From Thermomicrobiaceae bacterium (lineage in GTDB: Bacteria > Chloroflexota > Chloroflexia > Thermomicrobiales > Thermomicrobiaceae): a stretch of 56,288 nucleotides of DNA. The stretch covers positions 1-56,288 of the forward strand of contig JADBJL010000054.1 of the NCBI GenBank assembly GCA_014874455.1, given 5' to 3'. The notes beneath the pieces were generated by a model. It had not been told where the DNA came from, searched no databases, and worked only from the letters and a program-made list of their open reading frames with translations. Made by a program: the position numbers and the translations under genes. Below are positions 36,031-47,631 of the stretch, piece after piece. How positions within the stretch are numbered: position 1 is the stretch's first letter; each line of letters starts with the position of its first letter.

Positions 36031-37911
36031 TCATCCCTTCTGGGGCACCACCAGTCGCCGATCCGGTAGAACCTCGAGCACTTCGGCTGCGACCTCGTAT
36101 CGCCCGAATGAGGGCATAAGATAGACGCCGTGAACGAGCTCGCGCGCCTCGAGCAGGAGTTCCTGCGCCATCCTGACCCCTTCGCGCCGCCCTTCGGGGC
36201 CTGCCAGCCGCATCCGCTCGCGGGCCTCGTCGGTCAGTGTGATACCGGGCACCTCGTTGTGCAGGAACTCGGCGTGGCGGTGGCTCTGCAGGGGGAGGAT
36301 ACCGAGGAGCACCGGTACGCCGATGGGGCCGTATCGCTCCTCGTAACGCTTCAGGAAGTCGATCCAGACCCTAATAGCGAAGATCGGCTGCGTCATCACC
36401 AGATCGGCGCCTGCTTCAATCTTCTGGTGGAGTCGGTCGACCTCCTCGTCGAGGTGAGGGCGGGTCGGGTCGCAGGCCACGGCAACGGTAAAGCTCGCCA
36501 TCTGGCCGATCGACGCGCCGCCAGCGTCCAGGCCGCGGTTAAACTGCTTGATGATCTTGACGAGGCCGATCGAATCGACGTCATAGACCGGCGTGGCGTG
36601 TGGGTAGTCGCCCAGTGTGGGCGGGTCGCCCGTCAGTGCGATGATGTTGCGGATGCCGAGCGCGTGGGCGCCGATCAGGTCTGACTGGAGCCCCATTAGG
36701 TTCCGATCCCGCGTGGTGAAGTGCAGGATCGTTTCGACCTCGACCTCCTGCTGGATCAGGGCGCACAGGGCGAGCGCGCTCATGCGGACGCGGGCCATCG
36801 GGCTATCAGCGACGTTGATGAACTCGACGCCAGCCTCTTTCAAGAGCTGCGCTCCAGCTAGCGCCTTGCGCGGGTTCAGCCCCTTCGGTGGGTCGATCTC
36901 GACGCTGACCACGAACTCGCGGCCCAGCTTCTGCGCCAGCTTGGTGGGCTCTTCGGGGGCGAGCGGCTCTCGCGGCCGGCGCTGCTTGACCTCGATCACC
37001 GGGGGGCGTGGGGAACCTGGGATTTGCAGCACATCCATCACACTGCGCATCGCCTGGATGTGTGCCGGAGTCGTCCCGCAACAACCGCCGATGAGACTGA
37101 TGCCCGAGCTCATCGCTTCTCGCGCGTAGTCCGCGAAGTAGTCTGGGGAAGCGGTGAAGATGACACGGTTTCCCACCTGTCGCGGCCAGCCGGCGTTCGG
37201 CTGACCCGACAGGGGGATCCGGCCCCTGCTCGCGCTCAGCATCGTCCTCAGCACCTCGAGCGTCGGTCGCGGGCCGACGCTGCAGTTGACGCCAGCGACC
37301 GTGACGCCGAGTTCCATCAGGGCAGCGACCACCTCTTCCGGCGTATGCCCGTGAATCGTACGGCCATCCGAGGCGAACGTCATCTGCGCGACGATCGGCA
37401 GGTCACAGACGTCGCGAGCTGCCTGCACGGCCTGGCGCATTTCATCGAGCTGGGAAATGGTCTCGATGATAAGCAGGTCGACGCCGCCTTCGAGCAGCGC
37501 CTCGATCTGCTCGCGGTAGGCATCGCGCACGTGGTCGGGAGGCGTGGTGCCGATCGGGGCGAGCATGCGTCCGGTTGGGCCGATCGACCCTGCGATGAAC
37601 ACCGGGTGGCCAGTGATTTCGCGGGCCTCACGCGCGTTGCGGGCGGCCTGGCGGTTAATCTGCCGTACCAGGGATGCGAGCCCGTGTTGTTCCAGCTTGA
37701 ACCGGTTGGCACCGAAACTGTTCGTTTCGATGATCTCGGCACCGGCCAGGATGTAGTCCCGGTGGATATCGATCACCAGCTTGGGGTTCGAGAGATTGAC
37801 CTCGTCAAAGCACGCCTCCAGGGGAACGCCACGCTCGTAGAGCTGTGTGCCCATCGCGCCATCGCAAAGGATTGGGCCGCGAGACAGCCGCTCGATGAAA
37901 GGATGCGCCAT
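36031..37911 (-). CDS. Homocysteine S-methyltransferase/methylenetetrahydrofolate reductase fusion
   Basis: This 626-residue protein fuses two enzymes of the methionine branch of one-carbon metabolism. Residues 1 to about 295 form the methyltransferase domain with its zinc cysteines in GVNCSVGPRP and GGCCGTTPAH. From about residue 320 the FAD-containing reductase follows (VSVEIDPPKGLNPRKAL, ITALTGDPP-like IALTGDPPTLG, and QPIFAIRVW). The domain makes 5-methyl-THF from methylene-THF. The arrangement matches YitJ of Bacillus. ATG at 37911 follows a perfect GGAGGTGA. A TAGAAT (minus strand, 37972-37977) or TATACC may be its -10. Confidence 0.95.
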   Translation of the reverse strand: MAHPFIERLSRGPILCDGAMGTQLYERGVPLEACFDEVNLSNPKLVIDIHRDYILAGAEIIETNSFGANRFKLEQHGLASLVRQINRQAARNAREAREITGHPVFIAGSIGPTGRMLAPIGTTPPDHVRDAYREQIEALLEGGVDLLIIETISQLDEMRQAVQAARDVCDLPIVAQMTFASDGRTIHGHTPEEVVAALMELGVTVAGVNCSVGPRPTLEVLRTMLSASRGRIPLSGQPNAGWPRQVGNRVIFTASPDYFADYAREAMSSGISLIGGCCGTTPAHIQAMRSVMDVLQIPGSPRPPVIEVKQRRPREPLAPEEPTKLAQKLGREFVVSVEIDPPKGLNPRKALAGAQLLKEAGVEFINVADSPMARVRMSALALCALIQQEVEVETILHFTTRDRNLMGLQSDLIGAHALGIRNIIALTGDPPTLGDYPHATPVYDVDSIGLVKIIKQFNRGLDAGGASIGQMASFTVAVACDPTRPHLDEEVDRLHQKIEAGADLVMTQPIFAIRVWIDFLKRYEERYGPIGVPVLLGILPLQSHRHAEFLHNEVPGITLTDEARERMRLAGPEGRREGVRMAQELLLEARELVHGVYLMPSFGRYEVAAEVLEVLPDRRLVVPQKG

Positions 37912-38021: not shown

Positions 38022-38070
38022 GGTATACGTTCACCCAGCGATTGACAAGCGCCGTGGGATGGAGTAGGCT
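38022..38070. promoter_or_regulatory. Divergent promoters with overlapping -35 boxes
   Basis: Plus strand: TTGACA (38042-38047), 17 bases, TAGGCT (38065-38070), for the ECF sigma gene. Minus strand: TTGTCA (38043-38048), 15 bases, TATACC (38022-38027), toward the methyltransferase/reductase gene. The two -35 boxes share five bases, so polymerases would exclude each other. The minus promoter spacing is short. Confidence 0.5.
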
Positions 38071-38144
38071 GGACGGCGAAGCGGCACGGCGTAGAGTAGA
38101 ACCACTGTCCTTGTCGTACGTTGTTAGAGGCAGGAGGACGTGGC

Positions 38145-38735
38145 ATGGACGGCTCGGCCGCCTTGTCCGCCGCCGAAGAGCTTGGGTGGGTGACCCGCGC
38201 GAAGGAGGGCGACCAAGCCGCGTTCGAGGCGATCTTTCAGCGGTACGAACGGCCCATTTACCAGTTTATTTACCGCATGATGGGGAATGCCGAGGACGCG
38301 GGCGACCTGACGCAAGAGTGCTTCATTCGAGCCTACCGGGCGCTGCCGCAGACGTCGGATGACCTCAACGTCTCAGCGTGGCTGCACCGGATTGCGGCGA
38401 ACGCCTGTCTGGACGTGTTGCGCCGGCGTAAGCGGATCCGCTGGTTACCGTGGGAAGGGCAGGGTCAGTCGGATCTTCAACTCAACGGTCACCTGGAAGA
38501 TCCGGAGCGGGAGGCCATCCGCAACGAGACGCAGGAGTTGGTTCAGTATGTGCTGAGCCAGATGAATCCGCGGCACCGGCTCGCTCTCATCCTCAGGGAG
38601 TACGAGGGCCTGTCCTGCGAGGAGATCGGCGAGATCATGGGTTTGTCGCGGTCGGCGGTCAAGTCGGTACTCTTTCGCGCACGTGAAGAGTTCCGACGCA
38701 TCTATCGGACGACGGAGGAAACGGTACCACCATGA
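38145..38735 (+). CDS. ECF sigma factor
   Basis: This 196-residue sigma factor has region 2 ([21 protein letters not shown], then [17 protein letters not shown]) and region 4 ([44 protein letters not shown]). It directs RNA polymerase to stress genes and is normally held by the anti-sigma factor encoded next, which its stop overlaps (ATGA). ATG at 38145 follows AGGAGG; an upstream TTG at 38121 is less likely. It probably also controls its own promoter. The target genes are unknown. Confidence 0.95.
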
Positions 38736-40300
38736 AGTCCCGCGAGTGCGAGTCCATGAGGCTGCTGATCTCGGCCTACATGGACGGGGAGCTGAGCCCG
38801 GAGGAAGAAGAACAGCTCCACCAGCACCTCGCACAGTGCTCCCAGTGTCGGAACCTCCTCGCTGACTACCAGCGCCTCCGTAACCACCTGCGCTTTCTGC
38901 CATCGTCTCCCGAGCCGCCGCCCCAGCTTCGCCAGCAGGTCTGGCGCCGGACTGTCCAGCGGGAGCTCGCCCAGCGAGCAAAGCGTGGCCCAGGGGTGCT
39001 CTTTCTCCGGCCGAGCTTCTCCACGATGGCCCTCAGCGTTGCCGTGCTCGTCGTGCTCGCACTCGTGCTCACCGTGGGATACCAGCGCGCCCTTCCTCCA
39101 GCGGTCGCTGGCTCCTCGCCACAGGATGGCCAGGTGTGGCCGATCTACCAGCCGATCGAGATCACCTTCAACAAGCCGATGAATCACCAGTCAGTCCTTG
39201 CCCATCTGCGGATCGCGCCCGCCGCCGAGCGCGAGCGGCTGCCGGTGAGCTGGCGCGGCACCACCCTCGTTATCGGGGCCGACCACGAGCAACAGGTTTC
39301 GCTCTTGCCGGATACCGTCTACACCGTGGCCGTGCTGGCCGGCGCGCAAGACCAGTGGGGACATCCACTCGGTAAGGACTGGGTGGTCACCTTCCGTACC
39401 ACGCGCGTGATCGCGGGCCAGCAAACCCCGACGCCGTCCCGCGCCACCCCAGAACTCTCGCCGACCGCAACGCCGGAGCTGGCTCAGGTGGAGCCAACAC
39501 AGCCACCCATGCCCACGCCTACTCCCAGCCCGTCCCCAACGACTGTGGTCAAGCCGGATCAGCCGGAGCAGTCATCTCCTGTGCCACAGAAGACGCCACC
39601 GCCAGCACCGACCGTGACTCCGACGCCGCTGCCGGCCGCGACTCCGACGCCGGCCTCGACGCCGGAGATAACACCGACCCCGGAACCGTCGCCGACACCC
39701 ACGCCTGCCCCTTCACCGTCGCCGACGCCAGAACCGACCGTTAGCCCGGTTCCGACCACCCCTGAACCGATCCCGGTGACCGGCGCCTTCGCACAGGTCT
39801 ACTGGGGCAATGAGACGGTGCAGCAGAAGCTCGGGCAGCCGCTCGAGTACGCCTACACAGTGAGCGCGACCGAGATGGGCTTCCAGCGAGGCCTGATGAT
39901 CGAGCGGTTCGATAGCCTGGTCATCTACGTGCTGGTCTCTGACGGCACCTGGTTCCCGATCGCTGATACCTGGGCGCCGGAAACCTGGCCGACGGCTCAG
40001 GAAGTGGAGCCGAACCTGTGGTCACCTGGCGGATCGTTCGGTGCGGCATGGCGCGACCAGGCGCTTCAGCCCATGCTCGGCTACGCGATCGAGCCGCAAG
40101 CGTACCTGATGACGCAGGGCGCGAGGATCCAGGCGTTCGAAAACGGGCTCTTGCTCTTGAGCGAGCGCGGTTTCGTCTACATGCTGCTCGAAAACGGCAC
40201 GTGGGAGCAGTTCCCGGCGGCTGCGAACCTCTCGAATCCTACTAGTGGCTCCACAGGTGCGGGTTCCCCGCTCGAAGCGACCACTGTGTCACAGCCCTAG
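38732..40300 (+). CDS. Membrane anti-sigma factor with Ig-like and duplicated extracellular module
   Basis: This 522-residue protein is the likely anti-sigma partner. Residues 1-60 form a zinc-finger anti-sigma (ZAS) domain with [10 protein letters not shown] (H-x3-C-x2-C pattern). One membrane helix lies at about 97-117. Outside follow an SbsA-type Ig-like (Big_5) domain (about 125-230), a long Pro/Thr/Ser linker (about 235-350) and a C-terminal part with two copies of a module of about 50 residues, [VL]QxxLGxxxExxxx..FxxGL..VYxLxxxGTW. The outer part may be the sensor for wall stress or a ligand. It is translationally coupled to the sigma gene. Confidence 0.9.
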
Positions 40301-40373: not shown

Positions 40374-41303
40374 TCAGGTCGCGAGGTTTTGGAGCAGGAT
40401 TGCCACGACGTTATAGGCCGTGTGCGTCAGGATGCAGGCGGTCGTTCCGAGGTACCGGCGTTCGAGCCCCAGCAGCACGCTCATGGCGAAGACGCCAGCG
40501 GTGATGAACGAGAGGCCATACTGCACATGCACGAGCGTAAAGAGCACCGAGGTGAGAACGAGGCCGTAGCGTGGCTGGATCGCCCCTCGGAACAGTACCT
40601 CTTCGCCGATGCCGGCGGCCATGCTGACGGCGAGCGCTCCGCCGAACGAGGAGACCTCCTCGGTCATTCGAACCAAACGGTCTTCGATCACACGAGCCAG
40701 CTCGGGCTGAAGCCACTGCGTCAGCGCGCCTGAGAGGCTAGCGATGATGAAGAGCAAGACGGTGAAGCCGAGCGCGGTGACAGCCTGCACGAGGGTGAGG
40801 CGCCGCAGGCCAAGCCGCTGAGTCGTCGAGGATAGATCGCGTTCGAAGCCCAGCCCGACAGCGAGCAGCGCGACACCGAGCAAGGTGATCGACTGCGCGA
40901 CGAGCTGAACCACTGAGACCGAAGTGATCCGTAGCTGGTCTCCGAGCCAGATGAGTGTGGCGAGATTGCCCGCGATCAGCGCCGCGAGGATAGTCAGCCC
41001 CACCAGGTCGGGGATCGACTCGGCATCGAACGGGAGCAGCCGAGCGAGCAATCGGCGCACTGGCCCGGCGAGCGGAACCAGCATGGCGATGCCAGTGGTC
41101 GTGAGCACGAGGCCGATTCCGGGTGCCACCCGCGGCCTGGCCAGAGTCAACCCCAGGCCGATCAGTGTCGACCCCAGGGCGATGCCCCACAGAAGCCCCA
41201 GGAGCAGCAAGCGAAGCGTCCGATCGGCGCGTGCCGCGCGCGCCCACGCGCTGACGACTGCAGTGACGAGCAGTATCGCGATGAGTTGCACTATCCACGA
41301 CAT
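40374..41303 (-). CDS. CPBP family intramembrane glutamic endopeptidase
   Basis: This 309-residue membrane protein has about 8 hydrophobic segments and the ABI/CPBP (CAAX protease-like) signature: GIGEEVLFRGAI (EExxxR), VLFTLVHVQYG (FxxxH) and ILTHTAYNVVA (HxxxN). It may cleave membrane proteins or modify signal peptides. With the ECF/anti-sigma pair on one side and an RseP at 46.3 kb, a role in releasing the sigma factor is an open but untested thought. ATG at 41303 has a weak AGGA upstream. It is divergent from parB. Confidence 0.9.
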   Translation of the reverse strand: MSWIVQLIAILLVTAVVSAWARAARADRTLRLLLLGLLWGIALGSTLIGLGLTLARPRVAPGIGLVLTTTGIAMLVPLAGPVRRLLARLLPFDAESIPDLVGLTILAALIAGNLATLIWLGDQLRITSVSVVQLVAQSITLLGVALLAVGLGFERDLSSTTQRLGLRRLTLVQAVTALGFTVLLFIIASLSGALTQWLQPELARVIEDRLVRMTEEVSSFGGALAVSMAAGIGEEVLFRGAIQPRYGLVLTSVLFTLVHVQYGLSFITAGVFAMSVLLGLERRYLGTTACILTHTAYNVVAILLQNLAT

Positions 41304-41429
41304 CGCCGTGATCCTGTCCGGATTCGCCGGCCCTCGACCTGGCACGGGTCGGAGTATAGCCTGTAGGACGAACCGACCGTGCTAGACTCAAGCGAGGCAA
41401 GGAATGCTCGGCGAGGCAGGCAGACGGCG

Positions 41430-46305: not shown

Positions 46306-47631
46306 GTGACAGCGACCGCGCTCTACATCGTCCCGATCCTCGCGCTTCTCATCCTGGTACACGAGCTCGGTCATTTCCTGACCGCGCGCCTCTTCGGCAT
46401 CAAGGTGCTGGAATTCGGCATCGGGCTACCGCCTCGGATAGTCGGGATCAGGCGTGGCGATGTGCTGTACTCCATCAACTTGATCCCGATCGGCGGCTTC
46501 GTGCGTGTCCTGGGCGAGGACAGCCGGAGTCTCGAGCCGGGCAGCCTGCAGACGAAGTCGCGTTTCCAGCGCGCGGTCTTCTTTGCTGCGGGGGCACTGA
46601 TGAACCTCGTGCTGGCGGTGCTGTTGACTACAGTACTGGTAGCGGCTCAGGGTGAACCCGAGTTACGCGTGTACATCGCCGAGGTGGCCCCTGACTCCCC
46701 GGCTGCCGAGGCGGGATGGCAGCCGGGCGACCGTTTCCTGGAAGTAGCCGACCGTCCGGTGGAATCGGTGGAGCAACTGCTCGATCTGACCGAGGAGCAT
46801 GCTGGCCGGCCGATGGCCGTGACATTGCTCAGGGGCAGCGAGCGCGTGGAGACGGTCGTCGTTCCGCGGCGTGACCCTCCCCCGGGACAGGGGCGAACCG
46901 GTATCCGAGTCACTGAGGCGGCGCGAGCGCGGATCAGCGTGGCGCAGGTGGAACGGCTTTCGCCTGCCGAGGTGGCAGGGTTCCAGCCAGGAGACGAACT
47001 AGTCAGGATCGGGGAGTACGAGATCGAAGACGTGGCGAGCTACACACTCGCCCTGGAGCACTATGCCGGACAGACTGTCCCGGTCGTCGTGGTGCGGGGA
47101 GACCAGGAGGTCGTCATCGATCTCGCTGTGCCCGAGGAGGTGCCAGCGGAAAGCCAGCTCCATGTCGGGTTACTGGTCAGGCAAGACATCCTGGCCCAGC
47201 CGGTACCGTGGTGGAAGGTACCGTGGCGGGGGATCGAGCAGACGCTCGGTACACTCGTCATGATGTTCCAGGCGTTGGGGATGCTCTTGCGCGGCGAGGC
47301 GCCGCTGACCGGGATCGCCGGGCCGATCGGTATGGGCCAGCTCACGTCTGAGATCCTGGCGGTCAGCCCCGCGCCGATCTGGGTGACGCTGCTCAACCTT
47401 ACGGTGCTGCTCTCGCTGAACCTGGCGGTGCTCAACCTGATCCCGTTCCCCGCGCTCGACGGTGGCCGCCTGTTCTTCGTCCTGATCGAGGCGGTGCGAC
47501 GCCGCCGTATCGCGCCGGAGAAGGAAGGGCTGGTACACCTGATCGGGTTCGTCATCCTGCTCACCTTCATGTTCTTCATCGCCTTCGTGGACATCGGACG
47601 GTTGCTCAGCGGGGAGCCGTTGCTCCGCTGA
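46306..47631 (+). CDS. rseP: Site-2 intramembrane metalloprotease RseP
   Basis: RseP cuts membrane-spanning anti-sigma factors and remnant signal peptides inside the membrane. The 441-residue protein has HELGH near residue 20 (VHELGHFLTARLFG), two PDZ domains (about 115-190 and 210-285) and the second zinc site NLIPFPALDGGRLF, with four membrane helices. The start is GTG at 46306, with a weak GAGG upstream. ispG follows, as in many bacteria where dxr-rseP-ispG form a unit, but dxr is not here. It is a candidate partner of the ECF anti-sigma factor. Confidence 0.95.
   Translation: MTATALYIVPILALLILVHELGHFLTARLFGIKVLEFGIGLPPRIVGIRRGDVLYSINLIPIGGFVRVLGEDSRSLEPGSLQTKSRFQRAVFFAAGALMNLVLAVLLTTVLVAAQGEPELRVYIAEVAPDSPAAEAGWQPGDRFLEVADRPVESVEQLLDLTEEHAGRPMAVTLLRGSERVETVVVPRRDPPPGQGRTGIRVTEAARARISVAQVERLSPAEVAGFQPGDELVRIGEYEIEDVASYTLALEHYAGQTVPVVVVRGDQEVVIDLAVPEEVPAESQLHVGLLVRQDILAQPVPWWKVPWRGIEQTLGTLVMMFQALGMLLRGEAPLTGIAGPIGMGQLTSEILAVSPAPIWVTLLNLTVLLSLNLAVLNLIPFPALDGGRLFFVLIEAVRRRRIAPEKEGLVHLIGFVILLTFMFFIAFVDIGRLLSGEPLLR

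Follow-up and report, generated by a model that had tools for sequence, protein, structure and literature searches.

The window analysed here, the whole 56,288-nucleotide stretch from a Thermomicrobiaceae bacterium, contains two consecutive genes encoding an ECF sigma factor and a membrane-bound zinc-finger anti-sigma factor (Table 1). The likely start of the sigma gene is the ATG at 38145, with an AGGAGGA ribosome-binding site at 38132, and its reading frame ends at 38735, overlapping the anti-sigma start at 38732. Divergent from the sigma gene, on the reverse strand at 36031-37911, is a gene for a fused homocysteine S-methyltransferase and methylenetetrahydrofolate reductase (Pfam). An Rfam scan of the whole window detected no match at gathering scores.

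Table 1. Features of the sigma/anti-sigma locus, the candidate proteases and the candidate target gene (positions of the window unless a contig is named)
Feature	Position	Strand	Basis
Sigma70-type promoter, TTGACA-N17-TAGGCT	38042..38070	+	Sequence, upstream of sigma gene
Putative autoregulatory ECF promoter, GAACC-N15-CGTT (AAC-N16-CGTT)	38099..38122	+	Upstream-region comparison
ECF sigma factor, SigW-like	38145..38735	+	Pfam sigma70 r2 and r4
Anti-sigma factor, 522 aa	38732..40300	+	ORF listing, Pfam
Zinc-binding anti-sigma domain (zf-HC2, HxxxCxxC), residues 6-40	38747..38851	+	Pfam, motif position
Transmembrane helix, about residues 100-118	39029..39085	+	Hydrophobicity
Big_5 Ig-like domain, residues 122-223	39095..39400	+	Pfam
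Pro/Thr-rich stalk, residues 226-348 (123 residues, 55% P+T)	39407..39775	+	Composition
LGFP-like repeat 1, residues 353-413	39788..39970	+	Repeat alignment, profile
LGFP-like repeat 2, residues 428-497	40013..40222	+	Repeat alignment, profile
CPBP/Rce1-like membrane protease, candidate site-1 protease (speculative)	40374..41345	-	Pfam Rce1-like, 41.4 bits; convergent with anti-sigma gene
RseP-family site-2 protease with M50 and PDZ domains, candidate for cleavage in the membrane	46306..47631	+	Pfam, 186.2 bits
Apparently exported protein, N-terminal domain and NHL repeats	G000:C94:58901-59785 (locus L249:634-2394)	-	ECF-type motif about 130 bases upstream

A first-pass annotation, made from the DNA alone, had proposed a zinc-type anti-sigma domain, a membrane helix and an outer part of about 400 residues with a Big_5-like domain and a Pro/Thr linker. 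All of these elements were recovered. The zf-HC2 domain scored 42.4 bits in Pfam against a cut-off of 22.2, with the motif HLAQCSQC at residue 32; a single hydrophobic helix follows, the most hydrophobic 19-residue window starting at residue 98; and some 404 residues lie C-terminal to this helix, including a Big_5 domain (39.5 bits against a cut-off of 23.6) and the stalk listed in Table 1. By its domain content and its adjacency to a sigma gene, the protein is a class I (ASD) ECF anti-sigma factor, and it probably inhibits the sigma factor inside the cell.

Two copies of a module of roughly 50 residues had also been proposed for the C-terminus. Alignment of the two repeats gave a score of 73 as compared with 24.7 ± 4.5 for shuffled sequences, with none of 2,000 shuffles scoring as high, and comparison of a profile of repeat 1 with a profile of repeat 2, each from 20 orthologs, gave an E value of 3.5e-17 over 63 columns. 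On this evidence, the repeats are a true duplication, of a unit that is nearer to 60 residues than to 50. A structure predicted for residues 345-500 from two input sequences only (this protein and that of locus L047) had a pLDDT of 34, with no residue at or above 50. This low-confidence model places a helix before strands in each half; a Foldseek search with it produced no match at E 0.001.

Conservation of the module was assessed in 61 genomes, using the C-terminal 150 residues as the query, and a match was obtained in 28. By family, matches were found in 21/21 genomes of the own family (this genome included; the match in G010 is truncated at a contig end), 4/5 of f2, 2/2 of f4, 1/1 of f5 and 0/32 of f3, such that four families of the order (f1, f2, f4 and f5) have the module in 28 of 29 genomes. 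In the single exception, the f2 genome G032, the sigma gene is 68% identical and the anti-sigma gene leaves the contig within the linker, before the module. No ortholog with only a short random tail, a pattern that the annotation had taken as contrary to its reading, was found, and the architecture that it had proposed looking for in Thermomicrobia is present in the orthologs. The domain order was the same across 24 aligned proteins from 24 of the 28 matching genomes, the alignment omitting L021, L025 and L036, which reach contig ends, and L031, which is near-identical to L030. As these proteins were found via the module, the genome count and not the alignment is the test of conservation. All of the 24 proteins but one have the HxxxCxxC motif, the exception being the f5 ortholog L035 (358-1896), whose anti-sigma domain is without this zinc motif. 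Mean identity of 23 orthologs to the protein studied here was highest for Big_5 (0.57), followed by the anti-sigma domain (0.52) and repeats 1 and 2 (0.49 and 0.51); the linker (0.38) and above all the last 25 residues (0.12) were less conserved. A genome scan found a relative in CALKCJ010000020.1 (uncultured Thermomicrobiaceae bacterium), and a search of viral contigs yielded no further sequence for the structure prediction.

Family f3, with no module match in any of its 32 genomes, was inspected at 11 loci from 11 genomes. The nearest sigma factors were 38-43% identical, and all 11 had a zinc-finger anti-sigma gene beside the sigma gene, with a long, mostly low-complexity and often Pro/Thr-rich tail that extends beyond the stretch read. 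These loci correspond to the tail-only case that the annotation had named as refuting, yet, because of the low sigma identity, they probably represent pairs that are not orthologous to the one studied here.

The C-terminal duplication most likely consists of diverged LGFP repeats (PF08310). In Pfam, the repeats of this protein match no family and do not reach the LGFP gathering score, a scan of the own genome for LGFP detected nothing at or above the cut-off, and a profile of the own family alone (A4) did not find PS1 or any other LGFP chain in the PDB; hence, LGFP membership rests on the orthologs. Seven of these were compared with Pfam as whole proteins: L033 and L034, from a sister family, scored 34.5 and 36.3 bits for LGFP against a cut-off of 22, L022, L026 and L035 matched below the cut-off, and L015 and L030 had no match. 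The profile search envisaged in the annotation was performed with a profile of 20 orthologs (A5, without free-standing proteins; the L021 and L025 rows have their N-terminus beyond the contig) and matched the LGFP stalk of Corynebacterium PS1/MytA in the PDB (6swz, E 2.4e-8; 6sx4, E 9e-6). A further profile of 17 rows (A6), representing the module of kinases, other anti-sigma factors and free proteins, matched PS1 at 6.3e-8; a score above the LGFP cut-off was demonstrated only for the source proteins of its rows L037, L067, L126 and L127. The own-family profile aligned with A6 at E 1.7e-39 over 144 columns, as compared with 0.039 or worse for reversed and column-shuffled controls, a match that is partly by construction since 15 of the 17 A6 rows were gathered with A5. 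LGFP domains consist of a helix and a three- to four-stranded sheet, and those of Corynebacterium glutamicum MytA are described in the available text as interacting with peptidoglycan-arabinogalactan (PMC11299179); a second source, as far as its text is available, also treats LGFP as a cell-wall-interacting module (PMC12113857). By ortholog profile, the MytA/PS1 stalk belongs to the same repeat family; MytA has five LGFP repeats on an enzyme (PMC11299179, available text), while here two diverged repeats are present on a regulator.

The sigma gene was directly upstream of the anti-sigma gene in 14/14 neighbourhoods. Its best NCBIfam model was SigW, with a score of 126.8 bits; as this is under the cut-off of 209, the pair can be described as SigW/RsiW-like in its working, yet the sigma factor is not classed as SigW. 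By eye, sites like the sigma70-type promoter of Table 1 were also present in L048, L049 and L050. The second promoter element, AAC-N16-CGTT, which resembles a SigW-type promoter, was present in 10 of 15 orthologous sigma upstream regions (500 shuffles: mean, 0.11; maximum, 2), a count made on the same 15 sequences that, on inspection by eye, had first drawn attention to the motif. These regions are not all independent, as nine of the genomes are of the own family and three of the own genus. Among the remaining five regions, three had an N17 spacer and two were without the AAC.

A regulon could not be drawn from the motif alone, as its genome-wide counts did not clearly exceed those of a reversed-pattern control (48 versus 36, 51 versus 27 and 64 versus 104). 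Nine motif sites of the own genome had a counterpart in genome G001, of which six were judged by eye to lie within conserved coding sequence. The other three retain the motif with a diverged spacer between the two genomes: the sigma promoter, the site upstream of the NHL gene (Table 1) and an intergenic ECF-type site (G000:C54:6927-6950, forward strand; locus L181) between genes for a MiaB-like and a small Cys-rich protein, both named by eye. For the NHL gene, the best match from 20 of 27 genomes with a homologue was examined, and AAC-N15-17-CGTT was present within 220 bases upstream in 11/20 (300 shuffles: mean, 0.46; maximum, 3). The four same-genus rows of this test are not independent because the gene was chosen for a motif kept between two genomes; outside the own genus, the motif was present in 7/16. 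The nine genomes in which it was missing comprise every tested genome of g6 (four) and of g4 (five). Spacing was N17 at both the sigma and the NHL promoters in G004 and G012, and N17 at the sigma but N16 at the NHL promoter in G030, such that covariation of promoter spacing between the two genes was only partly borne out. A search of the own genome at E 1e-10 with the N-terminal domain of the NHL protein gave 11 matches; a relationship of this domain to LGFP could not be demonstrated (hhalign probabilities of 22 against A6, 4.1 against A5 and 6.1 against A4). A relative of this domain occurs together with an LGFP pair in a single reading frame at L038.

Proteases that might act on the anti-sigma factor are encoded nearby. 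In a comparison that looked for ten window genes only, the CPBP/Rce1-like gene adjoined the anti-sigma gene in 11/14 neighbourhoods, and ParB was also present in 11/14. The RseP gene is 6 kb from the anti-sigma gene, and RseP and IspG were found further downstream in seven of eight relatives, the exception being G005. As this whole block is conserved, the proximity of the RseP and CPBP genes says little about a link to the anti-sigma factor. Two PrsW proteins scored above the cut-off in the own genome.

In wider searches, matches to the module were obtained in 43 of 251 genomes of a phylum sample and 67 of 120 of a class sample. Of 68 phylum rows, 61 were inspected, the other seven being five same-family orthologs (the own protein included), a second match in the L073 reading frame and a second G061 row. 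By motif, 17 of the 61 were Ser/Thr kinases and 10 rows, from 9 distinct reading frames, were zinc-finger anti-sigma factors; the other 34 had neither a kinase nor a zinc-finger motif, and some of these end at contig edges. One protein called an anti-sigma factor by the motif script, L112, was dropped, its motif preceding a lipoprotein-like start. Pfam confirmed the kinase domain in all five kinases submitted, with LGFP above the cut-off in one and below it in four. For eight anti-sigma-type proteins (L100 and L124 were left out), zf-HC2 was above the cut-off in seven, not in L127, and LGFP in four. An ECF sigma gene with 42-54% identity was just upstream in 8/9 anti-sigma-type loci tested (L124 was left out), with L127 the exception within the stretch searched. 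This protein (L127:1322-3208) has a Big_5-like region, a membrane helix and LGFP, is without a zinc finger or a nearby sigma match and is perhaps a former anti-sigma factor. The Hanks-type Ser/Thr kinases of other Chloroflexota with a C-terminal LGFP-like pair are those of L077-L079, L081-L087, L096, L098, L102-L104, L106 and L110. Because the pair ends both ECF anti-sigma factors and Hanks-type kinases, these matches suggest that it is a common outer module of signalling receptors in the phylum, with an envelope-sensing input.

Our main reading, to which we assign a probability of roughly 0.6, is that the gene pair is a SigW/RsiW-like ECF sigma/class I anti-sigma system with an LGFP-tipped envelope receptor, from which proteolysis would release the sigma factor; domains, adjacency and promoter motif are seen in the sequence, and ligand, cleavage and sensing are inferred. 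The outer part would consist of a membrane-proximal Ig-like domain, a Pro/Thr stalk of about 120 residues and the diverged LGFP pair at the tip, which would bind an envelope polymer. An altered contact, through ligand loss, damage or strain, would lead to cutting of the outer part by a site-1 protease (PrsW or the CPBP/Rce1-like protein), followed by cleavage in the membrane by the RseP-family protease, and the freed sigma factor would transcribe its own operon and genes encoding surface proteins, for example the NHL protein. The anti-sigma factor may, in this way, report the state of the envelope. SigW/RsiW of Bacillus subtilis is likewise an ECF sigma factor with a zinc-finger, single-pass anti-sigma factor, and homologues of PrsW and RseP are also encoded in the genome studied here. 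The outer part of RsiW is short; that of this protein runs to approximately 404 residues and includes Big_5, the stalk and the LGFP-like pair. B. subtilis RsiW is acted on by PrsW and RasP, according to the available text of PMC10202637. The wall-sensing or ligand-binding receptor of the first-pass annotation thus gains support, from sequence, through the likely LGFP repeats and the occurrence of the same pair on other membrane signalling proteins; its claim of a difference from known regulated anti-sigma factors applies to the outer domains but not to the overall design, which is of the RsiW or RsgI type.

An unlikely but still serious alternative is that the LGFP pair is a wall anchor only and that the signal is sensed elsewhere, in Big_5 or in the juxtamembrane stretch. 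LGFP being a cell-wall-interacting module (PMC11299179 and PMC12113857, available text) would fit an anchor, and Big_5 is at least as conserved (0.57) as the repeats (0.49 and 0.51). The long tails of the f3 ECF anti-sigma factors, in which the module was not found, might likewise be cited, but those pairs are probably not orthologous, with sigma factors only 38-43% identical; moreover, the pair recurs on membrane signalling proteins of two unrelated classes, which argues against a mere anchor.

RsgI pairs with SigI, not with an ECF sigma factor, and its outer domains are of other kinds, in contrast to the ECF sigma factor and the Big_5/LGFP-like pair found here. The RsgI anti-sigma factors of Clostridium thermocellum are likewise membrane proteins that sense substrates outside the cell and undergo cleavage by RseP (PMC12203970, available text), which would favour a substrate sensor whose repeats bind an external polysaccharide and whose regulon serves polysaccharide use. 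We consider this improbable; speaking weakly against it, the downstream genes in 11/14 neighbourhoods, among the ten window genes looked for, are the CPBP protease and ParB, and the sole regulon candidate is the exported NHL protein. A chance similarity, with a disordered tail as the outer region, is highly improbable: the predicted structure without any residue at pLDDT 50 or more would agree with disorder, but conservation, the internal duplication and the profile matches with their controls all argue against it.

Beyond the main reading, we tentatively propose, at less than even odds, that the Chloroflexota LGFP pair is a general plug-in envelope-integrity sensor for ECF anti-sigma factors and Hanks-type kinases, a counterpart of PASTA, and that in the own order it drives a small regulon, including exported surface proteins, via a sigma factor reading AAC-N16-CGTT. 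PASTA-domain kinases such as PknB have wall-binding repeats outside and the regulator inside. The Chloroflexota kinases with an LGFP pair have a like layout in which LGFP substitutes for PASTA; in the protein studied here, the kinase, too, gives way to an anti-sigma domain. A search of the open-access literature found no description of one LGFP pair on both anti-sigma factors and Ser/Thr kinases, nothing on LGFP with an anti-sigma factor or on LGFP with a kinase in Chloroflexi and, for LGFP with a sigma factor, a match solely on a two-component system. Little is known of envelope monitoring in bacteria outside the well-studied phyla, and the wall of Thermomicrobia is unusual. With a receptor whose repeats are likely to bind the wall, the partner sigma factor, a promoter motif and one candidate target gene, the question of how these bacteria may monitor their envelope becomes a testable one.
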